NCBI GenBank assembly: GCA_027618255.1
Contig: JAQCFG010000007.1
Coordinates: 1-53,275, forward strand
Origin: Cyanobacteriota bacterium
Lineage (GTDB): Bacteria > Cyanobacteriota > Vampirovibrionia > LMEP-6097
Direction: 5' to 3'
Length of the DNA: 53,275 nucleotides
The position numbers and the translations under genes are program-made. This document shows, piece by piece, positions 1,707 to 52,608 of the stretch. Position 1 is the stretch's first letter. Each line of letters begins with the position of its first letter. The notes under the pieces are model-generated. The model searched no databases. It was not told the origin of the DNA and saw only the letters and a program-made list of their open reading frames with translations.

Positions 1707-2803
1707 ACTTCGCCCCCCTTATGAAATTCGGTAGTTAAATAAAGACTGAATGTGGTTTTACCATCTTGGCTTGCAAGACTAAGATCGCCACCCAGTAATT
1801 TAGAGAGAGACTTGCTGATATATAAACCAAGACCGGTACCTTCTGTGATTCTAGTGAGTGGACTATCCAGTCTACTAAATTTGGTAAAGATTTTTTGCTG
1901 ATCCTCTGCTTTAATACCAATACCGTAATCGATTATATCTACCTTGACCATTGGTTTAGCGTTGAGCATTGAGCTAGAGATTTCAATGTCTACTTTCTTT
2001 GATTCCGGTGAGTATTTAATAGCATTGTCAATTAGATTTGTAAGTACTTGCTCTAATCTATCTTTATCAACCCAAACCTCTGGAAGGTCTTTGGCTGAGA
2101 CTATTTTGATTTCATGAGAGAAGTTATGCTTAGAACCAACAACCTCGGCAATATAGTCTACCAAGCCATGGATTTTGACTGGATGAATGGTTAGTTGTAG
2201 CTTTTTGCTTTCGAGTCTTGAAACTGCAAGTAGGTCTTCAACCAATCTTGCAAGTCTTTCAGCTTGATTTTTAATGATGCCAATATATTTATTACGTTTG
2301 TCTTTGTCTATTTCTTGTTTGCTGTTGAGTAGTGTTGCGGCAAAACCTTTGATGCTAGTAATAGGAGTTCTTAATTCATGCGAAACTGTGCTAATAAATT
2401 CAGCTTGAGTTCTATCTAGATCTTTGTTATAGCCTTCAATAATAAAGAACATCAATGAACCAACTATTGCACCTGCTTTATCGATGATTGCTGTCTTGCG
2501 TGCTTGAATATTGATTTGTTTGCCGTCTCTAGTGAAGAGGGTTGTAGCTTGATGGTGAACTGATTCTGGGCTCGGGTCCGCTGAGCTGGTGAGATCTTTG
2601 ACTTGAAATAATTCAGAGATGTTTTTACCCAGAATTTCTGAGTCATGCCAGCCCGTAATCTCCACCATTTTGGTACTAAATAATGTGATGCGTTTTTGCA
2701 AGTTGTATGCTACAAAACCATTTTCTGTAGCTCTTGCAACGCTGTCGAGTATTTCCTCGGGATTATTTACGCCTAGTTTGGGAAATTGATCCATAACGGT
2801 CAT
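1694..2803 (-). CDS. Soluble PAS-domain sensor histidine kinase
   Basis: The protein has 369 residues. A PAS domain (about 15-120) is followed by a HisKA dimerisation domain with the H-box around His142 (FISTVSHELRTP). A HATPase_c domain follows with N-box NLIDNAIKYSP, G1 DYGIGIKAED and G2 GTGLGLYISKSL. No transmembrane segment is visible, so it senses a cytoplasmic signal. It precedes and overlaps the degenerate response regulator. A -10 hexamer TACAAT at 2811-2816 lies 7 nt before the ATG, predicting a leaderless mRNA. A 16-bp palindrome covers this -10 box, so a repressor probably controls the operon. All catalytic motifs are present. Confidence 0.9.
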   Translation of the reverse strand: MTVMDQFPKLGVNNPEEILDSVARATENGFVAYNLQKRITLFSTKMVEITGWHDSEILGKNISELFQVKDLTSSADPSPESVHHQATTLFTRDGKQINIQARKTAIIDKAGAIVGSLMFFIIEGYNKDLDRTQAEFISTVSHELRTPITSIKGFAATLLNSKQEIDKDKRNKYIGIIKNQAERLARLVEDLLAVSRLESKKLQLTIHPVKIHGLVDYIAEVVGSKHNFSHEIKIVSAKDLPEVWVDKDRLEQVLTNLIDNAIKYSPESKKVDIEISSSMLNAKPMVKVDIIDYGIGIKAEDQQKIFTKFSRLDSPLTRITEGTGLGLYISKSLSKLLGGDLSLASQDGKTTFSLYLTTEFHKGGEVWWD

Positions 2804-2819
2804 ATGTACAATTGTACAT
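2804..2819. promoter_or_regulatory. Palindromic operator (LexA-like) on the -10 box of the histidine kinase
   Basis: ATGTACAATTGTACAT is a perfect 16-bp palindrome directly before the start codon at 2803. Its core, GTAC then four bases then GTAC, matches the cyanobacterial LexA-box core as I remember it (GTAC-N4-GTWC). On the minus strand the same bases supply the -10 hexamer TACAAT, so a bound dimer would block the promoter. Assignment to LexA is inference. Confidence 0.55.
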
Positions 2820-2898
2820 TATTGGGCAGTCTATGATTTGAGAATTTTGCTTATGCTCGCTCTTCGAGGCTGCAAATGCTGCGCTGTAAAAAGCGCTC

Positions 2899-3699
2899 TT
2901 AACCTTGAAGTTCGTTGATCGCCTCTTTGATATCAGGAGCATTATAAACTGCTGAGCCAGCTACAAAGACATTAGCGCCCCTGGCTTGAAGTTCTTGAGC
3001 TATAGGTCCAGGAGCGACTCCTCCATCTATTTCGATAGCAAGTTCGCCTTTCGCAAAATCAGTACCAATAGTTCTGCCATTAGCTTTAGCTAGTTCTACT
3101 ACTTGAGTGATTTTTTCATAGACCACTGGTCTAAATTTCTGTCCACCAAAACCAGGATTAACGGACATGAGCAAAACCAAATCAATATCCTTAATAAAGC
3201 TCTCAAGCGAACTGACAGGAGTCGCAGGATTAATTGAGAGTCCAACCTTGACGCCTGTTGATTTAATTAATTGAACAGTGTTGAATATTTTCTCTGTGTC
3301 GTAGTCACTGACTGTCTTACCAAGCTCTTCCCACTGTTCTTGGGTCTCCTCACCAGTTAATCTTTTATCAAAATTGGAAACCGCTAATTGATGCTCAAGC
3401 AAGTCTTGTCTGCCGGCTGCATAGCGATACGCTTCCATATGAAATGTAATTAAGTCTGAACCAGCTTTGATAAAGTCAGGTATATGACGTTCTGGGTTCA
3501 CGATCATTAAGTGAACATCGATAAATAAATTTGTTATAGGTTTAATTGCTTTGACAACGGGTGCTCCGATGGTGATATTTGGTACAAAGCTACCGTCCAT
3601 TACATCAACATGAACCCAGTCAGCTGTTGCTATCTTCTTGATTTCGCTTTCTAAATTAGCGAAGTCGGCAGATAGGATTGAGGGTGCGATTAATACCAT
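2899..3699 (-). CDS. rpe: Ribulose-phosphate 3-epimerase
   Basis: The enzyme interconverts ribulose 5-phosphate and xylulose 5-phosphate in the pentose phosphate pathway. The TIM-barrel start IAPSILSADFANL, the metal-site VHVDVMDGSFVPN, HLMIVNPE, MSVNPGFGGQKF and the EIDGGV phosphate loop are all present. From the ATG at 3699 the product has 266 residues, longer than the usual 220 or so. The extra length lies mainly in a charged insertion after the MEAYRYA segment (RQDLLEHQLAVSNFDKRL and following). An upstream GTG at 3762 would add 21 residues without homology, so I prefer the ATG. Confidence 0.92.
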   Translation of the reverse strand: MVLIAPSILSADFANLESEIKKIATADWVHVDVMDGSFVPNITIGAPVVKAIKPITNLFIDVHLMIVNPERHIPDFIKAGSDLITFHMEAYRYAAGRQDLLEHQLAVSNFDKRLTGEETQEQWEELGKTVSDYDTEKIFNTVQLIKSTGVKVGLSINPATPVSSLESFIKDIDLVLLMSVNPGFGGQKFRPVVYEKITQVVELAKANGRTIGTDFAKGELAIEIDGGVAPGPIAQELQARGANVFVAGSAVYNAPDIKEAINELQG

Positions 3700-3840
3700 T
3701 GAGTTATTGGTTTTGCGATGTAGAGATTTTCTGTAGTACAAGACCGAGGAGCTTTTTGACACCGGAGTTTACTGGGCGTAAATGAGGATGGCAAAAAGTG
3801 ACGAGAACGCAGTAATATAGGAAAAGATCACAGAGTCAGT

Positions 3841-4320
3841 TTAGTTTCTGCCGAAATGAGCATAAGCCTTATTAGCTTCTGCCATTTTGTGTGTAGATTC
3901 TTTAGTCTCAACAGCTTTGCCTTTGTGGTTGAAAGCGTCTAATAATTCGTTACTAAGTTTCTCAATGAAGCTTCTACCACTACGTTTGCGAGCAGCGATG
4001 ATTAACCATCTGTGTGCAAATGCTTCACTAACTCTAGGCTCTACTTCACTAGGTACTTGGTAAGTTGCACCACCAATACGTTTGGCTTTAACTTTAACTA
4101 AAGGCATTGCATTCTTGACTGCTTGTCTGAAAATATCAACTCCTGCTTTGCCCTCGACTTTAGTGTCAAGTTCGCCAAGTGTTTTGTAAAACAATCCTTC
4201 GGCTGTTGATTTCTTGCCATCAACCATCATTCTGTTGATGAACGCACCTACGTGGGTATCGTTAAACCTTGGGTCTGGCTTTGCTACTTTTCTTTTAAAT
4301 CTTCCGTCTTTTCTTGGCAT
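3841..4320 (-). CDS. rpsG: 30S ribosomal protein S7
   Basis: S7 nucleates assembly of the 30S head and contacts tRNA at the exit site. The 159-residue protein shows family signatures: MPRKDGRFKRK, DPRFNDTHVGAFINRMM, GGATYQVPSEVEPR and FAHRWLIIAARKR. It lies 38 bp downstream of rpsL, as in the classical str operon. However, fusA and tuf do not follow; the next gene on this strand is rpe. Confidence 0.98.
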   Translation of the reverse strand: MPRKDGRFKRKVAKPDPRFNDTHVGAFINRMMVDGKKSTAEGLFYKTLGELDTKVEGKAGVDIFRQAVKNAMPLVKVKAKRIGGATYQVPSEVEPRVSEAFAHRWLIIAARKRSGRSFIEKLSNELLDAFNHKGKAVETKESTHKMAEANKAYAHFGRN

Positions 4321-4358
4321 TATAGTTTCCTTGTTAAATTAATTTCCTGTTTGTCTAG

Positions 4359-4745
4359 TTAGCTTTTCTTTTTAGCTTTTTCTCTTTTGGTTCCGTACTT
4401 AGATCTGCTTTGCTTACGTCCTGTAACACCTTGAGTATCAAGTGCACCACGAACTACGTGATAACGAACACCAGGCAAATCTTTTACACGACCACCTCTT
4501 ATAAGAACAACTGAATGCTCTTGCAAGTTGTGACCTTCGCCGCCGATGTAAGCTGTAATTTCTTCTCCGTTAGTTAAACGCACCCTTGCGATTTTACGCA
4601 TCGCTGAATTTGGTTTCTTCGGCGTGGCCGTTCTTACCTTTGTACACACACCACGCTTGAGTGGGTTGTTGTCCAAAGCCGGGCTCTTACTCTTTTTCTT
4701 TGAGTTTTTGCGGTTTTTGCGAATTAGTTGTTGTATAGTCGGCAT
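4359..4745 (-). CDS. rpsL: 30S ribosomal protein S12
   Basis: S12 sits at the decoding centre. The 128-residue protein has the conserved [17 protein letters not shown] loop, [20 protein letters not shown] and [14 protein letters not shown]. Lysines in the PKKPNS and GRVKDLPG loops, the sites of classical streptomycin-resistance mutations, are wild type. A TAGAAT hexamer lies 9 nt before the ATG, so the leader would be very short. rpsG follows; a divergent unknown gene starts at 4858. Confidence 0.98.
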
Positions 4746-4834
4746 TAGCAGGTTATTCTAGCACCCCTAGGGATTGGTATTGCTGGGATTTATAAGATTT
4801 TTAAGATTTTCTTTTAAATAAGGCTCTTTCAGGC

Positions 4835-4840
4835 TATAAT
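4835..4840 (+). promoter_or_regulatory. -10 box TATAAT upstream of 4858
   Basis: A perfect TATAAT lies 17 nt before the ATG at 4858, in the gap shared with divergent rpsL. It predicts a leader of about 10 nt. Confidence 0.55.
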
Positions 4841-4857
4841 CTAGGTGCTTTAAGGCT

Positions 4858-5541
4858 ATGAAATTCAAATCTATACATCTAATAGGCTTCCTGCGCAAGT
4901 TCCCTTTATCTTTACTAACGGAACTAGTGCAGCGCAGCGTTCCGATCTTTTTTGTATCGACATCACTAGCAAAACGGGGTTTTGCAGGATGTCTCATACT
5001 GCTTCTTGTGATTGCTTTACCGGCTTCTGCCAATACTATTCAGGCTTTGAGACAGGTTTTGCAGCAAAGAGCGGTACAACCCAAGATGTATTTACCCGAT
5101 AGCGTATTTCTTGGTGAAGAAATCAGGGTTTTTGTTTATGCGCCTGGCGCAAGCAAGGTTCAATTGTTTGCATCTAATGAACCAGGACAGATTGAACTAG
5201 CTGGAGAGCCTACTCGATTAGGAGTTGATTACAGGCAAATTGGTGAGAAGAGAGTTCTTGAGAATCAGAATTTAAAGGCTGACTTTGTTGTGAAGTTGGA
5301 TAAAGAGAAAGATGCTGCCTTGGTAGATAAGTTCTATATGTTTGAAGCTTTAGTAACTTATGAAGATCCGCAAACTGGTGAGACTAATACTATGCGCGCA
5401 AGTTACTTTGGTTCAAATGCAAATTTCTCAAATAATAATGCAGTCAAAATTAAACCAGAACCAACGAATCATGCAACGGCTGCTTCAATTGCTAAGTCGA
5501 TGATACCAGGTCTAGCACCGAGTCCAGGAACGGGATTGTAA
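4858..5541 (+). CDS. Exported protein of unknown function
   Basis: The 227-residue product is not recognised. A hydrophobic stretch (GCLILLLVIALPASA, about residues 43-57) ending in a signal-peptidase-like ASA site lies after an unusually long, basic N-terminus. An in-frame GTG at 4927 would give a more normal signal peptide. The mature part (QPKMYLPDSVFLGEEIRVFV and on) looks like a small beta-rich periplasmic or surface domain and ends in a Pro/Gly-rich tail. The stop is 1 nt before the next gene, which is translated directly behind it, and argS follows. Confidence 0.7.
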   Translation: MKFKSIHLIGFLRKFPLSLLTELVQRSVPIFFVSTSLAKRGFAGCLILLLVIALPASANTIQALRQVLQQRAVQPKMYLPDSVFLGEEIRVFVYAPGASKVQLFASNEPGQIELAGEPTRLGVDYRQIGEKRVLENQNLKADFVVKLDKEKDAALVDKFYMFEALVTYEDPQTGETNTMRASYFGSNANFSNNNAVKIKPEPTNHATAASIAKSMIPGLAPSPGTGL

Positions 5542-5542
5542 G

Positions 5543-6742
5543 ATGGACTATTATTCAAATACGCAGTTTGAAGAGTTTGATAGATTTGTCGAGTTTCTTG
5601 GCTTCACTTATGCTGACTCCATTAAAACAGCACGCAATGTCTTTATTGATTTAGATGAATATATCTTCCCGAAGAGTGCAAATAAACAAACTAGTTTTGC
5701 AAATCACCATCTGAGTCTTCAAGAACTCAATTTGCGCTTTAATCGTTTACTTGCTGAGTTTGCTGAATACGAGAGCAAGTTTCCTGGGCAAAAACAAAAT
5801 AGATACCTCACTATTAATGTAATTGATGTTAAGTCAAACACGGATGAGGAGCTGTTTCGCTGGTCTTACTATAATCACAAGTTTGCTGCCTCACAAGGGC
5901 AAGATCAAGCCGCTATGAATGAATGGCACAAGCTTGAATCCAGAATTGATGTTAATAAGCTTGCTCGTTTTAAAGCATTGCGAGAAACCAACCTTGCTTT
6001 TTATATGCATATTGTAAACAACCATCAATTCTTTGACAAGATTGTTTTTGCCGGTTTGCCGCATGAAACCAAAAATGAAACTCAATATGGTTTAGATGTT
6101 GCTGAGGAGCAATATCTCAGTAAGTCAATTCGTGATAACCAAGCTCAAGGAATTTGCCGACTTGTTGAAAATGGCTTGGGTGTTGCTGTGCTGAACCTCG
6201 TACTTAAATTTCAACTCTTGCGCAAGCTCAATATCAAAACACATATCCTTGCTAATTCTCGCAAACTCAATAAATACCTGCTTCTGGATATCAAGGCATT
6301 ACTTGCTTATATGGAGATTCAAGAAACTAATATCAATGATTGTGACTTTGTGTTTTTGATTAATGATTTAGATTTATTGAGTGTGATTCCTGAGGTGAAC
6401 ACAGCCAAGCCTATCTTTACTGTTGACTTGAGTCAAGAATCAACACCTAACTTCTCTTATATGCTTTTGCGTGATGATGGCTTTGAACAAATCTATGGTT
6501 ATGCTAAAAAACAAGCCGATAGAACTGCGGTAGATGCCATGATTAGGTCTCTGTGCTGCGGGCTAATGATGTTTATCACCAAGCGCAAATTCAAAGAACA
6601 GCTTGCGATTAATTATATGGATGATTATTTTTTACCCTTATCAAAGTCTTTGTCTAAGGATATTAGTGATTTCCAGACTTCAATTGATATGCTTACAGAG
6701 AAACTAGAAAATGAACCAGAGGTTGCCCCATTAGATGCTTAA
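5543..6742 (+). CDS. Conserved-looking protein of unknown function
   Basis: The 399-residue protein is not recognised. It lacks a signal peptide and clear membrane segments and is rich in Leu, Asn and Asp with long helical stretches, so it is probably cytoplasmic. It begins 1 nt after the exported protein and overlaps argS by 8 bp, so the three genes form one transcription unit with translational coupling. Base composition matches the neighbours. No catalytic motif could be picked out. Confidence 0.75.
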   Translation: MDYYSNTQFEEFDRFVEFLGFTYADSIKTARNVFIDLDEYIFPKSANKQTSFANHHLSLQELNLRFNRLLAEFAEYESKFPGQKQNRYLTINVIDVKSNTDEELFRWSYYNHKFAASQGQDQAAMNEWHKLESRIDVNKLARFKALRETNLAFYMHIVNNHQFFDKIVFAGLPHETKNETQYGLDVAEEQYLSKSIRDNQAQGICRLVENGLGVAVLNLVLKFQLLRKLNIKTHILANSRKLNKYLLLDIKALLAYMEIQETNINDCDFVFLINDLDLLSVIPEVNTAKPIFTVDLSQESTPNFSYMLLRDDGFEQIYGYAKKQADRTAVDAMIRSLCCGLMMFITKRKFKEQLAINYMDDYFLPLSKSLSKDISDFQTSIDMLTEKLENEPEVAPLDA

Positions 6743-8525: not shown

Positions 8526-8526
8526 A

Positions 8527-8554
8527 AAGCAGCCCTAAAGCAGAAGGGCTGCTT
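8527..8554 (-). terminator. Intrinsic terminator of the luxR-type gene
   Basis: AAGCAGCCCT (8527-8536) and AGGGCTGCTT (8545-8554) form a 10-bp stem with an 8-nt loop. Read on the minus strand the stem is followed by a run of T, a classical terminator for the gene ending at 8588. On the plus strand it lies 2 nt after the argS stop but lacks a U tract. A second stem (GGTGGTT/AACCACC, 8561-8579) lies between. Confidence 0.8.
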
Positions 8555-8587
8555 GAACAGGGTGGTTGTCATAACCACCAAAGGAGC

Positions 8588-9109
8588 CTAAACCAGGTAA
8601 TATTTACCGCTGGTAAATTGGATTTCTTGTTCTACTGTTTGGAAATCCGTGATCTCATATTCTGGGCGGAATTGGTCTAGTCCGACTATATTGTTACCAG
8701 AAGCATCCTGATTCGACTCTAAAATTGTTTCGTCCCAATCTTCAATTAATTCAATCTCTCTGTCATAGAAGCTTGATTGATTGGATTTTTGTTCTTTTTT
8801 AATTTTGGTAAATACTTTGTAGCCATCACGCATCTCTTTAGCAAAGAGCACCAACTCTCTTTCTTTGGGGCGGGCGCCATCAAGATTGAGAATCATGTTA
8901 CGAACTCTTGCAAGGTGTGATTCGACTGTTCTAATTGAGATAGATAGTGCAGCTGCAATTTCTTTATTGCTTTTGGCTTCACCGATCATGTTCAAAATAC
9001 TTACTTGAGCATCGGTTAGCTGCTCTCCTTTGTAACTTACCTTGGGTTTTAAAATTGCATCTTTCGGAAAGAGCTCTTTCTTTGGTTCTTTGGTTATAGT
9101 TGTTGCCAT
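8588..9109 (-). CDS. LuxR/GerE-type helix-turn-helix regulator
   Basis: The 173-residue protein carries a GerE-type HTH at about residues 28-75 (LTDAQVSILNMIGEAKSNKE, then IAAALSISIRTVESHLARVR), the DNA-binding module of LuxR/NarL regulators. There is no N-terminal receiver domain. Instead an acidic C-terminal tail of about 80 residues ends in FTSGKYYLV. The start at 9109 has AAGGA 11 nt upstream; longer in-frame starts add non-homologous sequence. It has its own terminator. It stands alone beside a repeat-rich gap that might contain its targets, which is speculation. Confidence 0.8.
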   Translation of the reverse strand: MATTITKEPKKELFPKDAILKPKVSYKGEQLTDAQVSILNMIGEAKSNKEIAAALSISIRTVESHLARVRNMILNLDGARPKERELVLFAKEMRDGYKVFTKIKKEQKSNQSSFYDREIELIEDWDETILESNQDASGNNIVGLDQFRPEYEITDFQTVEQEIQFTSGKYYLV

Positions 9110-9301
9110 TTCTATTTTTCCTTTTATAAACACGAATCCTATTTCCATTATTTGTATCCCCCGTGGAGCTTGCATACGCAAGCTCCCTTGTTGTATTTGA
9201 AGCAAGCGTGCTTAGTCAAACCCTGTCAAGGAAGGGGTCTTAGGTTGGCTTGATAAGCTCGCTTATGTCATTAATAATAAATGATTGAGTCCCAATATGA
9301 A

Positions 9302-9704: not shown

Positions 9705-9713
9705 TGGTATAAT
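9705..9713 (+). promoter_or_regulatory. Extended -10 promoter of fic
   Basis: TGGTATAAT is an extended -10 box with a perfect TATAAT at 9708-9713. An in-frame GTG lies 7 nt downstream at 9721, predicting a leaderless mRNA. Confidence 0.65.
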
Positions 9714-11924: not shown

Positions 11925-11930
11925 AATATA
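11925..11930 (-). promoter_or_regulatory. -10 box TATATT before lpxA
   Basis: TATATT on the minus strand ends 7 nt before the GTG at 11917. Confidence 0.4.
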
Positions 11931-12350: not shown

Positions 12351-12357
12351 GGGGATG

Positions 12358-12363
12358 ATTATA
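12358..12363 (-). promoter_or_regulatory. -10 box TATAAT of the thioredoxin lipoprotein
   Basis: A perfect TATAAT on the minus strand lies 7 nt before the ATG at 12350. Confidence 0.65.
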
Positions 12364-12364
12364 G

Positions 12365-12393
12365 CATCCGTCTTCGCTTTGCTACGACGGATG
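12365..12393. promoter_or_regulatory. Inverted repeat between divergent -10 boxes (trx lipoprotein / trpS)
   Basis: CATCCGTC (12365-12372) and GACGGATG (12386-12393) flank a 13-nt spacer. The pair lies exactly between the two divergent -10 hexamers, where RNA polymerase must contact DNA for both. A related CCGTCTTCG..CTACGACG sequence lies at 35847-35868 upstream of rplC, so it may be a dispersed repeat rather than an operator. Confidence 0.5.
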
Positions 12394-12394
12394 A

Positions 12395-12400
12395 TATCAT
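12395..12400 (+). promoter_or_regulatory. -10 box TATCAT of trpS
   Basis: TATCAT ends 6 nt before the GTG start at 12407, predicting a leaderless mRNA. Confidence 0.55.
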
Positions 12401-12406
12401 AGAGCT

Positions 12407-16549: not shown

Positions 16550-16555
16550 ATATTA
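16550..16555 (-). promoter_or_regulatory. -10 box TAATAT of tyrA
   Basis: TAATAT on the minus strand ends 6 nt before the ATG at 16543. Confidence 0.45.
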
Positions 16556-16608: not shown

Positions 16609-16719
16609 ACATATACAAGGCTTGCGAGTTTTTGTGAACCGCAGTTGGCTGAGCCGCCAATGATGACGGATCAGAACGAGCGTAACGCAGTAGATGAGTT
16701 CTTCAAGACACGCTCTTAG
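16609..16719 (+). repeat. Coding-type dispersed repeat (same family as the gatB insert)
   Basis: This intergenic copy aligns with the reverse complement of the segment inserted in gatB (50241-50350). Shared blocks are ACAAGGCTTGCGA, CTGAGCCG, CAATGATGAC and GAGCGTAACGCAG. Its plus-strand frame reads RLASFCEPQLAEPPMMTD then QNERNAVDEFFKTRS-stop, parallel to RLAKSEQAELTEPSMMTA then HDERNAAGEDF in GatB. The stop TAG is at 16717-16719, against the end of the gene on the minus strand. Confidence 0.75.
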
Positions 16720-18724: not shown

Positions 18725-18731
18725 TATATTA
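18725..18731. promoter_or_regulatory. Overlapping divergent -10 boxes (flgF-like / GGDEF gene)
   Basis: TATATTA contains TATATT on the plus strand (18725-18730) and TAATAT on the minus strand (18726-18731). The minus box is 8 nt from the flgF-like ATG. The plus box predicts a leader of about 40 nt for the cyclase gene. Only one polymerase could occupy the site at a time. Confidence 0.45.
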
Positions 18732-21269: not shown

Positions 21270-21275
21270 TATAAT
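21270..21275 (+). promoter_or_regulatory. -10 box TATAAT of mnmE
   Basis: A perfect TATAAT ends 7 nt before the GTG start at 21283. Confidence 0.65.
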
Positions 21276-22648: not shown

Positions 22649-22654
22649 TAAAAT
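22649..22654 (+). promoter_or_regulatory. -10 box TAAAAT of ribH
   Basis: TAAAAT ends 8 nt before the ATG at 22663. Confidence 0.5.
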
Positions 22655-27032: not shown

Positions 27033-27038
27033 TAAAAT
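27033..27038 (+). promoter_or_regulatory. -10 box TAAAAT of the phosphohexomutase
   Basis: TAAAAT ends 7 nt before the ATG at 27046. Confidence 0.5.
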
Positions 27039-29930: not shown

Positions 29931-29936
29931 TATAAT
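29931..29936 (+). promoter_or_regulatory. -10 box TATAAT of thrC
   Basis: A perfect TATAAT ends 6 nt before the ATG at 29943, predicting a leaderless mRNA. Confidence 0.65.
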
Positions 29937-44220: not shown

Positions 44221-44226
44221 ATCTTA
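44221..44226 (-). promoter_or_regulatory. -10 box TAAGAT of mutS
   Basis: TAAGAT on the minus strand ends 7 nt before the ATG at 44213. Confidence 0.45.
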
Positions 44227-44923: not shown

Positions 44924-45124
44924 CTATTGTTGAGCGGGCTCCTCGGCTGCTCGGTAAGAAACTTCGGCAGTGTCAGCAAATTCAAGTACCTCTCCTAGTG
45001 ACTTGAGCTTGGTTTCATATTTTTCTATGAGGCTGTCCAGTTCCTTTCTTGTTCTATACAAAGTACCCAATTCCTTGGCATACTTCTTGAACTCATCTAC
45101 TATGTTTTCCATTCGTTTCTCCAT
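44924..45124 (-). CDS. Small coiled-coil protein of unknown function
   Basis: The 66-residue protein is almost entirely one helix with heptad-like leucines (VDEFKKYAKELGTLYRTRKE then LDSLIEKYETKL). It ends with a short Ala/Glu tail. AAGGG lies about 11 nt before the ATG; a second Met four codons in is an alternative start. It may be an oligomerising regulator or scaffold. No family is recognised. Confidence 0.55.
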   Translation of the reverse strand: MEKRMENIVDEFKKYAKELGTLYRTRKELDSLIEKYETKLKSLGEVLEFADTAEVSYRAAEEPAQQ

Positions 45125-45386
45125 CAGTTACGTGGCCCTTGAATCTTTTCTAATTCTTAGGCCGATATCCTCCGAGATGATCCCAAATCTAAGTTTTCTT
45201 AGATTTATGCAAGCAATAAATCACCTGCACATATGTTTTAATCGGCTTATCTGGGGCAAAACTTTAACGCTTTATGCAAAGTTAGGCCTTGTTACCTAAA
45301 GTCTACTATGTGTAATACAGTTCTGCCAAGAGTAGAATTAATAAATCAACTTGCTAGTCTAGGTCATATGGATGAGGAGCAGTTCG
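45125..45386. other. Gap downstream of topA
   Basis: The 262-bp gap contains an AACTTT/AAAGTT stem near 45251-45270. A possible 29-codon plus-strand frame (45308-45397, starting MCNTVLPRVELINQ) overlaps the topA stop by 11 bp. No ribosome-binding site supports it, so it is not called as a gene. Confidence 0.35.
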
Positions 45387-47903
45387 TTATAAGCTAAAAA
45401 CAGATTTTTCTTTTTGGCTTTCAATTTCTTCAAATTTGGGTCTGTACTGTTCAATGTCTTTTGGACTTGCAAGTCTGTTGTAACCACAAGTCTTGGTGTC
45501 AGAGCAAGCAAGTTTGTCACCACGTTTGAGGTTTTTGTACATCATTAATTTGTTGCAGTCAGGACAGTGTTGGTTAATTGGATGATACCAAAAAACTTCT
45601 TCGCAACCATTGGCTGACCAGTTGTTACAACCAAAAAATATTTTATTGAAGCGTGATTTTTTCTCGACGATCTCACCACCGCAAGCCTCGCGCGGGCAGT
45701 TGATGCCAGTCTTTTTTTGTATCGGTGAAGTGAAGTCACAGTCTGTGGTTGTGCAAGCAAGATAGTCACCGTAACGACCGTAACGAATCACCAGGGATTG
45801 ATCCTTCTTACATTTTTTGCAATTCTCTTCTGTGTATGGTCTATCTTCTGGAGCTGGAGTACCTTCTTTGGTTAGATTGATAATGATTTGACAATCTGGA
45901 TACTGAGAACAACCCAAGAAAGGACCAAAACGCGAACTCTTAAGGTGCATCGTTGACTCGCAAGTCGGGCAATTATACTCTGTTTCAATTACGACATTGT
46001 CAATTGCTTCAGAAGCTTTTTTGACTTCATCAATAAATCCAGGTGCAAGTAAGTAATATGGATCTGGAGTTTTGTCTTCGAGTGTTTTTTTAGTCTTGCG
46101 ACGTGGTTTGATTTTTTCTTTCTTCTTCCATTCTTTACCTAAGTAAAACTCTTTGAGCATAATGATCCAATCAAGACCTTTCTCTGCAACACTGTCTAGG
46201 TTTGATTCCATACTAGAAGTAAAATCAACGTTGATATAGTTGCCAAAATGATCGACAAGTAGCTTATTGACTTGGATACCAAGCTTGGTAGGTTTGAGCC
46301 CGTTGCCTCCCTCGACTTTCTCTACATACTTGCGATCTTGGATAGTATTGATAGTTGGTGCGTAAGTAGACGGTCTACCAATACCTTGCTCCTCAAGTAC
46401 CTTGACCAGGCTAGCTTCATTGAAGCGAGGAGGACCCTCAGTAAAGTGCTGATTTGGTTTGGTCTTCAGTAGATCTATCTCGCTACCTTCTTTGAGACTA
46501 TCAGAGAATTTGGAGTCTTCGATTTCTGCTTCAAGTTCTTCACCAATCTCTTTGTCTTTGCCATAAAGAATTGAGTAACCAGCAAAGATTTTTTTGCTGT
46601 GGCTTGCTCTAAACAATAGATCTTTGTTTTCTGAGCTGATTTCAATTGTTTTGATTTCTAATTTCATTGGAACCATTTGCGATGCCATGAAACGTTGCCA
46701 GATTAGTTTGTAGAGTTTGTACTGCTCATCACTTAGGTATTGCTTCACGCTGTCAGGAGTCTTGTCGATATATGTCGGTCTAATAGCCTCGTGAGCATCC
46801 TGCTCGTTTTTCTTTTTGGTTTTATTGTACTCATTTGTAGTTTCTGGGTAGTATTCCGGACCCCAAGTCTTCTCGATATATTCTTTGGCTTCAATTTGAG
46901 CCTCTGGTGCGATACGTAAACTATCGGTTCTCATATAGGTAATCAAACCGACTTCGTCAGTGGTACCGATCTTCATACCCTCATATAACTTCTGAGCGAC
47001 TTGCATTGTCCGTTTGACGTTGAAGCCAAGTGCGTTACTGGCAGTACGTTGCAAGGTAGAAGTCTTGAAAGGTGGTTGAGCTTTTTTGCTACTTGGCTTA
47101 CTGGCTATTTTGCTAGCTACCAGTTTGCTTGCCTTCGTGCGAGTGATGATTTTATTCATTTCGTCTTCTGATTTAATTACAGTTGCTTTAGTAGGGTCGT
47201 AGTCCTTCACTGGACTCACTATTCGTTTGGAATCAACTTGAGCAAGACTAATTTCAAAGTTGATATTGGTTTTGGCTTCCTGAACATCAGCATTGAGAGA
47301 CCAGTATTCTTCTGGAACAAAAAGATTGATTTCTTCTTCACGTTCACAAATTAATCTAACAGCAATAGATTGAACTCTACCTGCACTACGCCCACCAACT
47401 TTGCGCCAGAGCAGTGGACTGATTTTATAACCTACTAGTCTGTCGAGCATTCTTCTTGCTTGCTGCGCGTCTACCAAGGCTTGATCAATTTGGCGAGGAC
47501 TATTTACAGCAGCTTTGACTGCAGTAGGAGTAATTTGGTTGAATGCGATTCTTGAAATATCTTTTTTCTTGCAATTTAGGATTTCTGACAAGTGCCAAGC
47601 AATAGCTTCTCCTTCGCGATCCGGGTCACTAGCTAAATAGACATGTTCAGCTTGTTTTGCATATGATTTAAGTTCATTAACTACTTTGTCTTTGCCAGTC
47701 ATGATTTCGTAGCTGGGCTCAAAGTTGTTCTTGACGTCGATACCAAGTCCTTTGGCAGGAAGATCTCGAATATGTCCAATACTTGATTTCACCAGAAAAT
47801 CCTTACCAAGTATTTTGGTGAGGGTCTTGGATTTTGCCGGGGACTCTACTATTACTAGGTATTTGAAATCCGCTTCTTTTTCTTTTGTCTTAGTTGTTGC
47901 CAT
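45387..47903 (-). CDS. topA: DNA topoisomerase I with four zinc-ribbon units
   Basis: Topoisomerase I relaxes negative supercoils. The 838-residue protein has the Toprim motifs VIVESPAKSKTL and SDPDREGEAIAWHL, the catalytic Tyr in GLITYMRTDSLRI and PSTYAPTI. The C-terminal region carries four cysteine clusters: CPTC..GCSQYPDC, CKKC..CTTTDC, a CPREAC..GCNNWSANGC variant and CPDC..CSDTKTC. E. coli has three. TAAAAT lies 8 nt before the ATG. There is no smf/dprA neighbour, unlike many genomes. Confidence 0.97.
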   Translation of the reverse strand: MATTKTKEKEADFKYLVIVESPAKSKTLTKILGKDFLVKSSIGHIRDLPAKGLGIDVKNNFEPSYEIMTGKDKVVNELKSYAKQAEHVYLASDPDREGEAIAWHLSEILNCKKKDISRIAFNQITPTAVKAAVNSPRQIDQALVDAQQARRMLDRLVGYKISPLLWRKVGGRSAGRVQSIAVRLICEREEEINLFVPEEYWSLNADVQEAKTNINFEISLAQVDSKRIVSPVKDYDPTKATVIKSEDEMNKIITRTKASKLVASKIASKPSSKKAQPPFKTSTLQRTASNALGFNVKRTMQVAQKLYEGMKIGTTDEVGLITYMRTDSLRIAPEAQIEAKEYIEKTWGPEYYPETTNEYNKTKKKNEQDAHEAIRPTYIDKTPDSVKQYLSDEQYKLYKLIWQRFMASQMVPMKLEIKTIEISSENKDLLFRASHSKKIFAGYSILYGKDKEIGEELEAEIEDSKFSDSLKEGSEIDLLKTKPNQHFTEGPPRFNEASLVKVLEEQGIGRPSTYAPTINTIQDRKYVEKVEGGNGLKPTKLGIQVNKLLVDHFGNYINVDFTSSMESNLDSVAEKGLDWIIMLKEFYLGKEWKKKEKIKPRRKTKKTLEDKTPDPYYLLAPGFIDEVKKASEAIDNVVIETEYNCPTCESTMHLKSSRFGPFLGCSQYPDCQIIINLTKEGTPAPEDRPYTEENCKKCKKDQSLVIRYGRYGDYLACTTTDCDFTSPIQKKTGINCPREACGGEIVEKKSRFNKIFFGCNNWSANGCEEVFWYHPINQHCPDCNKLMMYKNLKRGDKLACSDTKTCGYNRLASPKDIEQYRPKFEEIESQKEKSVFSL

Positions 47904-47911
47904 TTTGTTTG

Positions 47912-47917
47912 ATTTTA
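47912..47917 (-). promoter_or_regulatory. -10 box TAAAAT of topA
   Basis: TAAAAT on the minus strand ends 8 nt before the ATG at 47903. Confidence 0.5.
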
Positions 47918-48162
47918 GTTAGAAAACACATTCTTATATATGTTTGCTTTTGTTGCTTTTATATCATAGTTTTACGCTTTATGGCATTTGGATTTATTGA
48001 TCCTGAGATAGATTTGAGCTAAAATCCTTGAATATATTGGATTTTTGGCTGTTTCAGGTCGAAAAATATATTCCAAGGTTAAGGGATTTCCCGCAATAGA
48101 GCTTTACAGTTAAGCCCTGGTAAGCTAGTATTAATACATATTAACAAGTTGAGGTTATTTAT
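47918..48162. other. Gap upstream of topA and the 48163 unit
   Basis: A 13-bp inverted repeat (CCTTGAATATATT at 48026-48038 and AATATATTCCAAGG at 48065-48078, one bulged C) could be a terminator-like stem or operator. GAGG lies 8 nt before the small ORF at 48163. No other gene is seen. Confidence 0.45.
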
Positions 48163-48252
48163 ATGATTAAGCAAATTATTAAAGAGATTTTGGCCATGGT
48201 TTTAAGACCTGATTGCGGCCCGCTTAAAGCATATGCATACGTTCGCAATTAA
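48163..48252 (+). CDS. 29-residue small ORF coupled to the next gene
   Basis: MIKQIIKEILAMVLRPDCGP and nine more residues. GAGG lies 8 nt before the ATG. The TAA stop runs into the AAGGAG ribosome-binding site of the next gene (48251-48256), so translation of the two would be coupled. It may be a leader peptide or a small amphipathic membrane peptide. Confidence 0.45.
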   Translation: MIKQIIKEILAMVLRPDCGPLKAYAYVRN

Positions 48253-48263
48253 GGAGAATACTC

Positions 48264-49091
48264 ATCGTAGGTACAGGTACTAGCCAGAATACAGCAATCG
48301 CTCGAAGAAATCCTGAGTATGTATCATCGCGTGCTGCAGCTGATACTCAGCCGGCTACAACAGCTGGTACTTTGATTCTTGCTAATGATGCTTTGAAACA
48401 TCAGTCTAAGTCTCCGGGAAGTGATAATTCTTTTACTGTTTCTCCAAGACCGATACAGTCTAATATAATGGAGGCGAATCTCGGAAGTTTATTACATAAA
48501 GATGTAGTAGCAAAGACACAAGCTGTTACTAATAATGGTCTAAATGCTTTACGAACTGCAGGAGCTGCAACTAGTTCTATTGTTGCGAGTCTCGGTGATA
48601 TAACCAAACTTGGTTTGAATAAAACAGCAGCCAATCCAGTTTGGATTACAGCAATTGCTGGACTTGGTGGTTTGGTTACTGGTGTGAAATCAGTAAAAAA
48701 TATTCTCAAAAGTGTTTCAACAATGATGGTACCAACTCAAGATCTCAAGCTTGGTTGGTTGCCTCACGGGATTATGGGGATATTACAAGGTGGTTTATTT
48801 TTTGGTTTGACCTCGGCGTTTTTTGGTAAACATAATTTGTTTACTGAAATAAGTGATGGTAAGCCAGTAGTGCGTATGAAGACACTTGCTGGTGCTGCAA
48901 TTGCTCCATTTGGCTTGAGTGTTTTGATGAATCTTGCAAAGGCAACTTCTATCTTACGTAAGATTCCGATACTGGGTCCAGCCTTGCAAGAGATTTGTGA
49001 AACTATTTTTGGTGCTGGTAGAGAGATGACGGTTGGCACTGATAGTAATCCTCAGGCGAGTGCAGCTGGTGCACCTGCATTAGGAAGATAA
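48264..49091 (+). CDS. Unknown membrane protein, probable AUC start
   Basis: From ATC 48264 the protein has 275 residues. AAGGAG lies 7 nt upstream and the frame is open throughout. The first ATG/GTG/TTG in frame is TTG 48372, which has no ribosome-binding site. The N-terminus is Ser/Thr/Ala-rich. Three hydrophobic segments follow (WITAIAGLGGLVTGVKSV, LPHGIMGILQGGLFFGLTSA, LAGAAIAPFGLSVLMNLAKA). The C-terminal tail is polar. No family is recognised. A 22-bp palindrome begins at the stop codon. Confidence 0.6.
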   Translation: MVGTGTSQNTAIARRNPEYVSSRAAADTQPATTAGTLILANDALKHQSKSPGSDNSFTVSPRPIQSNIMEANLGSLLHKDVVAKTQAVTNNGLNALRTAGAATSSIVASLGDITKLGLNKTAANPVWITAIAGLGGLVTGVKSVKNILKSVSTMMVPTQDLKLGWLPHGIMGILQGGLFFGLTSAFFGKHNLFTEISDGKPVVRMKTLAGAAIAPFGLSVLMNLAKATSILRKIPILGPALQEICETIFGAGREMTVGTDSNPQASAAGAPALGR

Positions 49092-49112
49092 TTTTTGACT
49101 TAAGTCAAAAAT
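49091..49112. terminator. 22-bp palindrome at the stop codon of the 48264 gene
   Basis: A perfect palindrome with core TTTTTGACTTAAGTCAAAAA, beginning at the last base of the TAA stop. It is identical to the palindromes after thrC and trpA. gatB converges from the other side, so a bidirectional terminator fits well here. Confidence 0.65.
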
Positions 49113-49127
49113 ATCCGGTTGTGCCTA

Positions 49128-50714
49128 TTACTTAAGTAACTTTCCAAGTAATTGATTGACCAAAGCTGGCGGCGCCTTGCCCTCGGTCTTCTTCATTATT
49201 TGCCCAACAAAAAATCCTTGGATTTTGTCGTTGCCTGACTTAAATTGCTCTACTTGTTTAGGGTTAGCATCTATCACTTCTTGCACTATTGCTTCAATAG
49301 CGTCAGTGTCGGTGATTTGCGCTAAGCCCTTGTCTTCAATTAGCTTAGCTACTGGGCTACCGTTTTCTAAGAGCTCATTGATAATATCGTTTTTGGCAAT
49401 ATTGTCAGAGATTGTGCCCTTTTCAATTAGTACTATCATTTCAGCGAGCAGTTCAGCACTGAGCTTGGTTTCATGAAGTGATTTTTTGTTTTCGTTGAGA
49501 TAGGCAGCGATAGGTCCGATAATCCAGTTAGCTGCTTTGTTTGCTTTAGCTCCCTTTGTAAGAACTTCTTCAAAGAAATGAGCAGTAGCTAAATCATCAG
49601 TCAATGTAGTTGCTGTATCTTCATTGATTTGAAACTCTTCAATGTATCTTGTTTTCTTTTGTTGCGGAAGTTCTGGTAAGGCTGCACGAGCATCATCAAC
49701 TTGTTTTTGTTCTAGCGTGACTGGTAATAAATCTGGCTCAGGGAAATAACGATAATCGTGAGCCTCTTCTTTCGATCTCATAGAGTGGGTTTTACCTGAT
49801 CCTTCTTCAAACAATCTAGTCTCTTGAACTATCTTGCCGCCTTCATCAAGGATTTGTGATTGACGTTTGTACTCATACTCGATAGCACGCGAGATCGAAC
49901 GGAAACTATTGACGTTTTTGATTTCCGCTCTAGTACCAAGTGGTTGACCTGGTTTATTGAGTGAAATATTAACATCACATCTTAGTGATCCTTCTTGCAT
50001 ATTACCGTCACAAACACCAGTATAAAGAAGTACCTTGCGCAATTCTTTGACATAGGTGACGGCTTCCTCTGCTGAATTAATATCGGGCTCTGAAACTATC
50101 TCTATTAGCGGGGTTGAAGCACGGTTGAGGTCAACAAGTGAGTGGTCTGAACCATGAAGTCTTTCGGCTCCTGCGTGAACTAATTTACCGGCGTCTTCTT
50201 CCATGTGAATACGTAAGATCCTTACATCCTTATAGCCCTTACGAAAATCCTCACCTGCTGCGTTACGCTCATCGTGTGCAGTCATCATTGACGGCTCAGT
50301 CAACTCAGCCTGCTCACTCTTCGCAAGCCTTGCATCTGAAGGATTTTCGTGAGTGCTATTCGCGTTGTTAATTGGAATGGTTAGCTTACCATGATTACAA
50401 ATTGGATTATCGAATTGAGAAATCTGATAACCCTTGGGAAGATCTGGATAAAAATATTGTTTGCGATCAAAACGCGAATTAAGATCAATCTTGCAACCAA
50501 GCGCAAGCCCAGCAGTAATTGCATAAGCGACGGCTTGTTTATTCAGGACAGGCAGCACACCTGGGTAACCCATGCATACTGGGCAAGTATTAGCGTTAGG
50601 TTCTTTACCAAACTCAGTAGAACATGAGCAAAAGAGCTTGGACTCAGTTTTGAGCTGGGCATGAACTTCTAGTCCAATGGTGATATTGTATTCTTGCTTG
50701 GTTGCTGTTGCCAT
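49128..50714 (-). CDS. gatB: Aspartyl/glutamyl-tRNA amidotransferase subunit B
   Basis: GatB is the kinase and tRNA-binding subunit that converts Glu-tRNA-Gln to Gln-tRNA-Gln. The 528-residue protein has ITIGLEVHAQLKTESKLFC, CPVCMGYPGVLPVLN, FYPDLPKGYQISQ, HMEEDAGK and the C-terminal YqeY-like tail domain. Residues 118-160 (STHENPSDARLAKSEQAELT and on) are an insertion that normal GatB lacks. Its DNA is a dispersed repeat with 11-bp inverted ends. TAAAAT ends 7 nt before the ATG. gatA and gatC are not adjacent. Confidence 0.96.
   Translation of the reverse strand: MATATKQEYNITIGLEVHAQLKTESKLFCSCSTEFGKEPNANTCPVCMGYPGVLPVLNKQAVAYAITAGLALGCKIDLNSRFDRKQYFYPDLPKGYQISQFDNPICNHGKLTIPINNANSTHENPSDARLAKSEQAELTEPSMMTAHDERNAAGEDFRKGYKDVRILRIHMEEDAGKLVHAGAERLHGSDHSLVDLNRASTPLIEIVSEPDINSAEEAVTYVKELRKVLLYTGVCDGNMQEGSLRCDVNISLNKPGQPLGTRAEIKNVNSFRSISRAIEYEYKRQSQILDEGGKIVQETRLFEEGSGKTHSMRSKEEAHDYRYFPEPDLLPVTLEQKQVDDARAALPELPQQKKTRYIEEFQINEDTATTLTDDLATAHFFEEVLTKGAKANKAANWIIGPIAAYLNENKKSLHETKLSAELLAEMIVLIEKGTISDNIAKNDIINELLENGSPVAKLIEDKGLAQITDTDAIEAIVQEVIDANPKQVEQFKSGNDKIQGFFVGQIMKKTEGKAPPALVNQLLGKLLK
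50241..50350 (-). mobile_element. MITE-like coding repeat inserted in frame in gatB
   Basis: ACGAAAATCCT (50241-50251) and AGGATTTTCGT (50340-50350) are perfect 11-bp inverted ends of a 110-bp segment. Read with gatB it encodes about 37 residues including RLAKSEQAELTEPSMMTA and HDERNAAGEDF. The reverse complement aligns with the intergenic repeat at 16609-16719 in sequence and in reading frame. Confidence 0.8.
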
Positions 50715-50721
50715 ATAAAGG

Positions 50722-50727
50722 ATTTTA
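50722..50727 (-). promoter_or_regulatory. -10 box TAAAAT of gatB
   Basis: TAAAAT on the minus strand ends 7 nt before the ATG at 50714. Confidence 0.55.
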
Positions 50728-50731
50728 TCAT

Positions 50732-50820
50732 ATCCGTCATCCTGAGGATTCAGGGAGGATGGAAGACTGAGAGTTCACTGGTGAAGGAACTGAGACCCCG
50801 TAAGATGACGTCAGGATCTT
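50732..50820. repeat. Dispersed repeat fragment between gatB and trpA
   Basis: CCGTCATCCTGAGGATTCAG begins like the GTCATCCTGAGGAG repeat seen at mnmE. The far end, GATGACGTCAGGATC near 50803-50817, is a rough inverse. It fills most of the divergent gap. Confidence 0.5.
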
Positions 50821-50831
50821 ATCCCTGCTAT

Positions 50832-50837
50832 CATAAT
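50832..50837 (+). promoter_or_regulatory. -10 box CATAAT of trpA
   Basis: CATAAT ends 7 nt before the ATG at 50845. An overlapping TATCAT at 50829-50834 is the alternative. Confidence 0.4.
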
Positions 50838-50844
50838 GTTTTAG

Positions 50845-51570
50845 ATGCTCGGAATTTACATCACAGCCGGATACCCAAATGCAGATGCAACGATTGAAGC
50901 CTTGCGTATTCTAGAGAAAAGTCAAGTTGATTTAATTGAGCTAGGCGTACCTTTCTCTGATCCGCTAGCAGACGGGCCAGTGATCCAGAAAGCTGCTTTT
51001 GAGTCTTTGCAGCAAGGCATGAATCTAGACAAGGTCTTTGATTTGTTCAAGCAGTCTGGCGTGAAAACCAAGACGATTTTGTTTTCATATTACAATCCTC
51101 TTTTTGCTTACGGCTGGGATAAATTAATTCAACAGTGTTTAATTAATAAGATTTCGGGTATCTTGATTCCTGATCTTCCAGTGGATGAGGCTGAAGAATT
51201 AAGCACCAAATTTAAAGCTGCTGGGTTAGATCTTGTTTTGCTTGCTGCAATCACCAGCACAGAAGAAAGGCTCAAGCGTATCTATGATCTCTCTAATCCT
51301 TTTGTCTACTTGGTTAGCAGGGTTGGGATTACTGGTGCTGGCGATGCCGGTAAAGATCAAAGTGAAAAAGAATTATTAGATCAAACTATCGCTAAGCTCA
51401 AATCCTTTGGCAATAAACCAATTGCACTTGGTTTTGGAATTGATTCACGAGAGAAAGTGGAAGCTGCATACAGACAGGGTGCTGATATGGCGATTATTGG
51501 TACCAAGACTGTGACTTTGACAGAGGATCTTAAGGCTTTTGAAAATTTTATTGCTAGTGTGAAGTCTTAA
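50845..51570 (+). CDS. trpA: Tryptophan synthase alpha subunit
   Basis: TrpA cleaves indole-3-glycerol phosphate and channels indole to TrpB. The 241-residue protein keeps both catalytic acids in LIELGVPFSDPLADGPVIQ and the phosphate loop GFGIDSREKV. The N-terminus starts directly at IYITAGYP and lacks the 15 or so residues (helix 0) found in most TrpA proteins. No upstream in-frame start was preferred because a -10 box lies 7 nt before this ATG. No other trp biosynthetic gene is adjacent. A 26-bp palindrome begins at the stop codon. Confidence 0.95.
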   Translation: MLGIYITAGYPNADATIEALRILEKSQVDLIELGVPFSDPLADGPVIQKAAFESLQQGMNLDKVFDLFKQSGVKTKTILFSYYNPLFAYGWDKLIQQCLINKISGILIPDLPVDEAEELSTKFKAAGLDLVLLAAITSTEERLKRIYDLSNPFVYLVSRVGITGAGDAGKDQSEKELLDQTIAKLKSFGNKPIALGFGIDSREKVEAAYRQGADMAIIGTKTVTLTEDLKAFENFIASVKS

Positions 51571-51593
51571 TTTTTGACTTAAGTCAAAAATTA
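51568..51593. terminator. 26-bp palindrome at the trpA stop codon
   Basis: A perfect palindrome with core TTTTTGACTTAAGTCAAAAA starting at the TAA stop. Its 26 bp are identical to 31017-31042 after thrC. Confidence 0.65.
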
Positions 51594-51608
51594 TCCTGTT
51601 GAAACAAT

Positions 51609-51614
51609 TAGAAT
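51609..51614 (+). promoter_or_regulatory. -10 box TAGAAT of ldhA
   Basis: TAGAAT ends 7 nt before the GTG start at 51622. Confidence 0.5.
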
Positions 51615-51621
51615 AAAGCTC

Positions 51622-52608
51622 GTGAGAGTTTTATTCTACAGTGCCCAGACTTATGACATTGAATCCTTTGATCTTGCCAACAAAGATCATGGCTTTGAAT
51701 TAATCTATCTTGAAGCTCACCTTAATGAAAAAACTGCTCTCTTGTCCAAAGGCTTTGATGCTGTTTGTGTTTTTGTCAACGACTCTGTTGATGCTGAGGT
51801 TTTACGGATCTTGTCAGAGAACGGCATTGGGCTTATAGCACTTCGATGTGCCGGTTTCAATAATGTAGATCTGGAAGCTGCCAAAAAATACAATATCAAA
51901 ATAGTAAGAGTTCCAGAGTACTCTCCTTATGCAGTGGCTGAGCATTCCTGTGCTTTGATACTTGCTCTCAATAGAAAAACTCACAGGGCTTACAATAGAA
52001 CTAGAGAATCTAATTTCAAACTCTGCGGTCTTCAAGGTTTTGATCTTGCGGGTAAAACAATTGGCATAATTGGTTGCGGTCGTATTGGACAAGTGGCTGC
52101 CAAGATATTTGATGGTTTTGGCATGAAGGTACTTGTCTATGATCCTTACTACAAGGGAGATTTGGACTTTGCTGTGCAAGTGACTTTGCCGGAACTCTTG
52201 CAAGCTTCTGATATTGTTAGTCTCTATTGTCCTTTGAATCAAGAAACCAAACATTTGATTGATGCAAAAGCAATTGAACAAATGAAAGACGGTGTGATGA
52301 TAATTAATACTAGCCGCGGAGCTTTGATAGACAGCAAAGCTGCGATTGCAGGTCTTAAGTCAGGCAAGATTGGATACTTAGGACTTGATGTTTATGAAGA
52401 AGAAGCAGGTTTGTTTTTTGAAGATCATACTGGCATGATTATGCAAGACGAGGTGCTTGCTCGTTTATTGACTTTCCCAAATGTCTTAGTAACCGGTCAC
52501 CAAGCGTTTTTTACGGCTGAAGCTTTGAGCCAAATAGCAAAAACGACTCTAGTTAATTTAGAGTCGTCTTTGCATGGTTCTGAAATATCTAATCTAGTAG
52601 AGGCTTAG
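51622..52608 (+). CDS. ldhA: D-lactate dehydrogenase (NAD-dependent)
   Basis: LdhA reduces pyruvate to D-lactate and regenerates NAD during fermentation. The 328-residue 2-hydroxyacid dehydrogenase has RCAGFNNVDLEAA, the NAD loop GKTIGIIGCGRIGQVAAKIF, NTSRGALID with the substrate Arg region, LDVYEEEAGLFF and the catalytic His in VTGHQAFFT. The GTG start is supported by homology and by TAGAAT 7 nt upstream. It converges on the small exported gene with a 4-bp overlap. Confidence 0.95.
   Translation: MRVLFYSAQTYDIESFDLANKDHGFELIYLEAHLNEKTALLSKGFDAVCVFVNDSVDAEVLRILSENGIGLIALRCAGFNNVDLEAAKKYNIKIVRVPEYSPYAVAEHSCALILALNRKTHRAYNRTRESNFKLCGLQGFDLAGKTIGIIGCGRIGQVAAKIFDGFGMKVLVYDPYYKGDLDFAVQVTLPELLQASDIVSLYCPLNQETKHLIDAKAIEQMKDGVMIINTSRGALIDSKAAIAGLKSGKIGYLGLDVYEEEAGLFFEDHTGMIMQDEVLARLLTFPNVLVTGHQAFFTAEALSQIAKTTLVNLESSLHGSEISNLVEA
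52543..52567 (-). terminator. Terminator of the small exported gene, inside ldhA
   Basis: ACGACTCTA (52543-52551) and TAGAGTCGT (52559-52567) form a 9-bp stem with a 7-nt loop. On the minus strand a T run follows, so it should terminate the gene that ends at 52605, although it lies in the ldhA coding sequence. Confidence 0.65.

Follow-up and report, generated by a model that had tools for sequence, protein, structure and literature searches.

We have analysed a stretch of 53,275 nucleotides (nt), referred to below as the window, which corresponds to positions 1 to 53,275 of contig JAQCFG010000007.1 in the cyanobacteriotal assembly GCA_027618255.1, and in which many genes carry a hexamer resembling a -10 promoter box very close to their start codons. 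The source is a metagenome-assembled genome of 1.99 Mb in 104 contigs, with a completeness of 95.7%. The nearest relatives of its GatB protein come from Candidatus Melainabacteria assemblies (87% and 79%) and then from Candidatus Caenarcanales (70% and 64%), and the genome is thus a melainabacterial one, from an uncultured relative of cyanobacteria, and probably belongs to the order Caenarcanales, which is listed in the NCBI taxonomy. Its own family is denoted f1 in the following, and the other families compared are denoted f2, f3, and so on. The gene names used for the window are backed in outline by Pfam matches.

The initial annotation had listed sixteen genes of the window with a hexamer 6–8 nt before the start codon, and had read them as genes with leaderless mRNAs, i.e., mRNAs that begin at the start codon itself. 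By direct check of the letters, each of the 16 hexamers is found at the gap that it gave, the gap being the number of nt between hexamer and start codon. However, they are not equally good in promoter form (Table 1). In 11 of the 16, TG plus any base (TGN) directly precedes the hexamer, a detail beyond that description, while the hexamers of the histidine kinase, flgF-like, topA, and ldhA genes are weak, with no TGN in register and a matrix score below 6 bits. For trpA, the CATAAT originally chosen does exist at 50832–50837, but a better -10 overlaps it at a gap of 10. It should be mentioned that the sixteen combined hand-chosen starts with this one CATAAT, and that a GTG was taken as the start of the Fic-domain gene. 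With automatically called starts, TANNNT is found at a gap of 6–8 nt in 11 of the 40 genes of the window.

Table 1 The near-start -10 elements in the window. The element is written with its TGN, where present, before the hexamer; the positions are those of the hexamer.
Gene	Strand	Element	Positions	Gap (nt)	Start codon	Remark
histidine kinase	-	TACAAT	2811–2816	7	2803	no TGN in register; weak, 3.2 bits
Fic-domain gene	+	TGG-TATAAT	9708–9713	7	GTG 9721	
lpxA-like	-	TGA-TATATT	11925–11930	7	GTG 11917	
thioredoxin-domain gene	-	TGC-TATAAT	12358–12363	7	ATG 12350	
trpS (tRNA synthetase)	+	TGA-TATCAT	12395–12400	6	GTG 12407	
tyrA	-	TGC-TAATAT	16550–16555	6	ATG 16543	
flgF/G-like	-	TAATAT	18726–18731	8	ATG 18717	no TGN
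mnmE	+	TGC-TATAAT	21270–21275	7	GTG 21283	
ribH	+	TGC-TAAAAT	22649–22654	8	ATG 22663	
phosphohexomutase	+	TGC-TAAAAT	27033–27038	7	ATG 27046	
thrC-like pyridoxal-phosphate enzyme	+	TGC-TATAAT	29931–29936	6	ATG 29943	
mutS	-	TGC-TAAGAT	44221–44226	7	ATG 44213	
topA	-	TAAAAT	47912–47917	8	ATG 47903	no TGN
gatB	-	TGA-TAAAAT	50722–50727	7	ATG 50714	
trpA	+	TGC-TATCAT	50829–50834	10	ATG 50845	
ldhA (2-hydroxyacid dehydrogenase)	+	TAGAAT	51609–51614	7	GTG 51622	no TGN; weak

A scan of the genome had been proposed as the test of this pattern, and it bears the prediction out. The sample covers 853 kb of the genome (43%; 39% GC), in which 639 genes were called, 6 cut ones were dropped, and 628 have readable upstream DNA. 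The starts were set by coding potential (codon model) with a fixed preference of ATG over GTG over TTG, and the upstream sequence was ignored. The first T of TANNNT falls at -12, -13, and -14, i.e., at gaps of 6, 7, and 8, in 65, 46, and 43 genes respectively, whereas the positions from -75 to -26 average 16.3 each; for TATAAT, the counts are 22, 15, and 9 against a background of 0.6 per position. Compared with 60 dinucleotide shuffles, TANNNT occurs at these gaps in 154 of the 628 genes vs 58.1 (standard deviation 7.0, maximum 76), and TATAAT in 46 vs 2.2 (maximum 5). With a scoring matrix trained on this genome, 149 of the 628 genes (~24%, the motif genes hereafter) have a hit of at least 6 bits, while the shuffles give 12.2 (maximum 22). 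If any in-frame start within -150 to +90 nt is allowed, 189 of 625 genes (30%) score, and the two out-of-frame searches yield 28 and 7.

Since the sample is rich in A/T and its starts are called rather than annotated, an artefact of composition or of wrong start codons has to be considered, but we regard its probability as practically negligible. Chance and A/T richness were rejected by the shuffles, the positional background, and the out-of-frame starts, and the wrong-start artefact by the persistence of the signal where the called start is also that of the longest open reading frame (110 of 406). In addition, with annotated starts, the Deinococcus radiodurans MP1 control is positive (TANNNT at -14 to -12 in 8 of 79 genes, 1.1 expected, peak at -12), while E. 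coli K-12 is not enriched at these positions (1 of 47 genes, 2.8 expected), nor are the cyanobacterial and proteobacterial loci described below.

The element at the gene starts has the form of an extended -10, TGNTATAAT, whose TG shifts together with the hexamer. In the motif derived by expectation maximization from 624 genes, T (0.57), G (0.85), and C (0.47) stand ahead of a TATAAT-type hexamer with frequencies at positions 1, 2, 4, 5, and 6 of T 0.91, A 0.97, A 0.78, A 0.84, and T 0.95; it is expected in 188 of the 624 genes with the first T at -18 to -12, and in almost none closer to the start. Among genes selected solely by the hexamer, G occupies the extended -10 position in 55, 74, 63, and 69% for gaps of 6, 7, 8, and 9, vs 17% for a gap of 5. 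Extended -10 promoters of the sigma-70 type are known to carry TGN before TATAAT with a weak or absent -35 box; the TGN is shared here, and the element differs in being set directly against the start codon. As for the -35 box, at least 4 of 6 matches to TTGACA are seen in 46 of the 149 motif genes vs 35.3 in shuffles, and at least 5 of 6 in 8 vs 4.3, a slight excess at most. The genome has ten Sigma70_r4 matches, 9 of them above the cut-off, none tied to the near-start sites.

Because a ribosome site would not need TG in such register with the hexamer, this feature marks the element as a promoter. The gene context points in the same direction. The motif is found in 59 of 234 divergent genes, in 56 of 200 lying at least 60 nt behind a same-strand gene, in 16 of 55 at 20–60 nt, and in 7 of 22 at stretch edges (25–32% by class), but in only 11 of 113 genes less than 20 nt behind a same-strand gene. 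It is true that an A/T-rich bias at -20 to -10 has been discussed both as a binding site of ribosomal protein S1 and as a Pribnow box in the passages of PMC5397173 on this region, and the hexamer might accordingly be an S1-binding or unstructured translation-initiation element. Such a reading is very improbable in our estimation, given the specificity of TGNTATAAT, the scarcity of the motif in closely spaced downstream genes, and the fact that similar elements in family f4 precede leaders (see below).

The spacing is informative as well. The count of TGNTANNNT is 22 at -12 and 1 at -11, that is, there is a sharp lower edge at a gap of 6, the spacing at which +1 would fall on the first base of the start codon; the TANNNT count jumps there, and the commonest gaps are 6 and 7. 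A pyrimidine occupies -1 in 25 of the 35 best genes with a gap of 6, compared with 185 of 405 genes lacking the motif (p=0.004), and TTG starts are rarer among motif genes (3 of 149) than among the others (34 of 484; p=0.026). A gap of 6–8 nt leaves no usual room for a Shine-Dalgarno (SD) sequence between hexamer and start, and of the motif genes, 2 of 149 have an SD core, compared with 121 of the 484 remaining genes, a difference that is partly forced by overlapping windows. Overall, 19% of the sampled genes have an SD core, pgi for instance carries AAAGGAG, and the 3' end of the 16S rRNA has a normal anti-SD, GGATCACCTCCTTT. As the anti-SD is intact, SD-led genes such as pgi can function beside leaderless ones.

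To see the spread of the arrangement, matrix hits were counted at -18 to -12 together with control windows; since the matrix was trained on the window's genome, the relatives serve as an independent test. In this count, the own genome gives 155 of 624 genes (control 15.2) and the other f1 genomes give 39 of 182 (control 3.3), with single-genome counts of 12 of 51 for a member of the same genus and of 5 of 28, 13 of 66, and 7 of 27 for members of three further genera. Family f6, a second family of the class with the motif, has a weaker signal (17 of 166, control 3.5, from L202–L211 and other f6 loci), perhaps an intermediate state. The counts elsewhere, with controls in brackets, are 5 of 91 (1.7) for f2, 4 of 128 (2.2) for f3, 8 of 161 (6.0) for f4, 2 of 60 (2.0) for f5, 1 of 36 (0.8) for f7, 2 of 73 (2.8) for f8, 0 of 40 (2.7) for f9, and 1 of 115 (4.8) for f10 and f12 together. 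The samples of photosynthetic cyanobacteria are not above control (2 of 168 vs 4.3), and the named cyanobacterial loci give 3 of 376 (9.8) and the proteobacterial and similar named loci 5 of 300 (3.3). In f4, 58% of the sampled genes have an SD core. One f4 genome, G043, has 8 hits among 77 genes vs 2.8 in the control.

A stricter count was made over 146 whole genomes, in which TATAATN{6,8}ATG is compared with the shifted-gap control TATAATN{16,18}ATG. This control was added because the reversed-pattern control was positive in f4 and negative in three f1 genomes (G009, G015, and G021). The window's genome shows 211 vs 77, a ratio of 2.74. By family, the ratio is 1.93 for f1 (range 1.21–4.15), 1.17 for f2, 1.41 for f3, 1.24 for f4, 1.00 for f5, 1.31 for f6, 0.87 for f7, 0.98 for f8, and 1.24 for f9; with the reversed pattern as control, the values for f1 lie between 0.79 and 3.00. 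Outside f1, raised values on small counts are seen in some individual genomes, e.g., in G001 of f2 (104 vs 56) and G031 of f3 (46 vs 15).

The gene gatB allows the families to be compared at a single locus. All 8 of the f1 genomes have TGNTAAAAT near the gatB start, at a gap of 7 or 8 (12 in G009), and the upstream DNA differs among genera. In f4, where the start could be placed in 6 of 12 loci, AAGGAG precedes the ATG in 6 of 6 starts read, and TGNTANAAT lies farther upstream in 5 of 6. The four starts placed among nine f6 loci have TATAAA, TATAAT, or TACAAT 7–12 nt ahead and no SD, with two of the four above 6 bits. More generally, among perfect TGNTATAAT/TGNTAAAAT sites within -60 to -12, those falling at -60 to -19 are 10 of 11 in f4, where one control motif also matched 4 times in that range, vs 13 of 41 in the own genome, and the remaining f1 genomes have 3 of 12; sites beyond -60 were excluded (5, 8, and 2, respectively). 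The GatB tree does not resolve the branching order of f1, f4, and f6, and so the direction of change is not decided by it.

We further compared the motif status of orthologues in 72 deduplicated reciprocal pairs, an 83-pair set (p=1.7e-6) having been dropped as seven genomes had entered it twice. The agreement exceeds that expected at random (14 of 26 against 6 of 46, p=0.0003), and also without gatB (7 of 19 against 6 of 46, p=0.04).

The gatB gene of the window has a further peculiarity, an in-frame insertion of ~46 residues (50225–50384, minus strand), which makes the protein 528 residues long vs 482 in G027 of the same genus. The inserted DNA is part of a dispersed repeat, ~100 nt long, for which the 853 kb contain 15 more matches at E<=1e-5. 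Of these, four are contained entirely in other called genes, always in the orientation of the gene and in three cases in the frame used in gatB; another 3 overlap an end of a gene, and the other 8 lie between genes, one of them at 16643–16698 upstream of tyrA. We take the repeat to resemble the palindromic elements of Rickettsia, which are inserted in proteins. Elsewhere in the window, the thioredoxin-like gene and trpS diverge with 56 bp between their start codons (12351–12406) and an extended -10 on both sides, and an inverted repeat with 20-nt arms (80%) spans most of this interval.

Taken together, the peak at gaps of 6–8, the frame specificity, the bias to first genes, and the TG of the extended -10 favour the leaderless interpretation of the initial annotation. 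We put a probability of roughly 0.86 on the reading that the hexamers are the -10 boxes of extended -10 promoters giving leaderless or near-leaderless mRNAs, with the 5' ends predicted from sequence patterns. RNA polymerase would start at the start codon or a few bases before it, from a promoter with the consensus TGC-TATAAT; the resulting mRNAs would have no leader or one of a few nt; and ribosomes would presumably start on the 5'-terminal AUG or GUG. Initiation on leaderless mRNAs elsewhere proceeds through 70S or IF2-aided complexes, which we presume here too. A leaderless or near-leaderless start would be one main initiation mode in this genome, for about 24–30% of the sampled genes, beside SD-led genes.

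How short the leaders are is a question within this reading. Gaps of 7–12 may correspond to leaders of 1–6 nt, and it is a tentative possibility, though on balance an unlikely one, that the promoters are real while many mRNAs are only near-leaderless with such leaders. The motif positions do trail from -12 to -18, rpsL has a gap of 9 and trpA one of 10, and the pyrimidine at -1 is not in excess for a gap of 8. Yet the commonest gaps of 6 and 7, the sharp edge at 6, and the pyrimidine at -1 for a gap of 6 are at odds with it, and with start-site choice across a few positions, gaps of 6–8 would still be compatible with +1 at the start codon. One might also suppose that the near-start sites are secondary promoters and most transcripts begin farther upstream, as upstream promoters are possible and the own sample does contain the 13 perfect sites at -60 to -19. 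We consider this improbable, because the edge at a gap of 6 suggests selection against a truncated start codon, and near-start transcripts must then matter.

On the other hand, several observations weigh against the leaderless or near-leaderless reading. In the own genome, 76 of the 149 motif genes sit at gaps of 8–12; a pyrimidine at -1 is no more frequent for a gap of 8 (42% of 24 genes) than in non-motif genes (46%); the 11 of 113 closely spaced genes score nonetheless, though likely internal; and within the 70 nt upstream of tRNA genes, a motif exceeding the 95% null score is present in only 4 of 13 cases. Among the relatives, seven named f1 loci give 8 of 68 (control 0.8), below the 39 of 182 of the other f1 set, with which their genomes overlap. 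The strict ratio is just 1.21–1.52 in G009, G015, and G021, for which the reversed-pattern control gives 0.79–0.96. In addition, motif status is not associated between genera, with gatB (8 of 19 against 6 of 29, p=0.19) or without it (3 of 14 against 6 of 29, p=1.0). Since there is no between-genus association apart from gatB, single genes seem to gain and lose the arrangement.

Regarding its history, Caenarcanales, a non-photosynthetic lineage next to Cyanobacteria, may have moved much of the gene set from SD-leadered to leaderless by the collapse of short leaders onto extended -10s, or may have kept a leaderless state that the neighbours lost, with f1 as an independent genome-scale origin and f6 as an intermediate. 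We lean only slightly towards this scenario; our confidence was reduced because PMC5397173 cites leaderless mRNAs in Cyanobacteria. Within it, gatB would display both states: in f4, TGNTA(A/T/G)AAT precedes a leader that contains AAGGAG, and in all of f1, TGNTAAAAT adjoins the start codon.

Actinobacteria such as Mycobacterium use leaderless genes genome-wide, with both ATG and GTG starts; they are alike in this respect but unlike in being high-GC and not cyanobacterial. In Deinococcus-Thermus, according to the portions of PMC12340547 on this group, a -10 motif lies a few bp before about 30% of open reading frames, and a -10 at the proper site suffices for transcription. The arrangement here is similar to this '-10 next to ORF' mode and to the TA-led leaderless genes in the relevant sections of PMC3160421. 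It differs in its lineage, its GC content of 39%, and its strong TGC extended -10 with a near-complete TATAAT, whereas the high-GC leaderless groups in those sections carry TAnnnT, and the word 'extended' is absent from PMC12340547. The photosynthetic Cyanobacteria belong to the same wider group and have low SD use, but in our samples their near-start motif is not above control. Many of them use neither SD-led nor leaderless genes according to PMC3160421, in its part on this phylum, in disagreement with the high leaderless fraction reported for Cyanobacteria as cited in PMC5397173. Leaderless transcription has been predicted in 21.6% of bacterial species, a figure cited in PMC9581028, so this kind of arrangement is not rare. 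We found no report of leaderless initiation in Melainabacteria or Vampirovibrio, nor, by a more narrowly combined query, in metagenome-assembled genomes, in the literature searched, which did not cover the other-phyla survey in PMC12340547 or the species behind the 21.6% figure. Overall, this is a known mechanism in a lineage for which no report was found, and what seems new is the lineage and its lineage-specific extended -10.

The best-documented groups with leaderless initiation at genome scale are Actinobacteria and Deinococcus-Thermus, and such initiation figures in arguments on ancestral initiation, as the pertinent passages of PMC3160421 indicate. For the annotation of Caenarcanales-type genomes, gene finders that expect SD sequences may misplace starts. 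As neighbour families of the same class are without the arrangement or, like f4, rich in SD sequences, the direction and the mechanism of the switch can be tested gene by gene.

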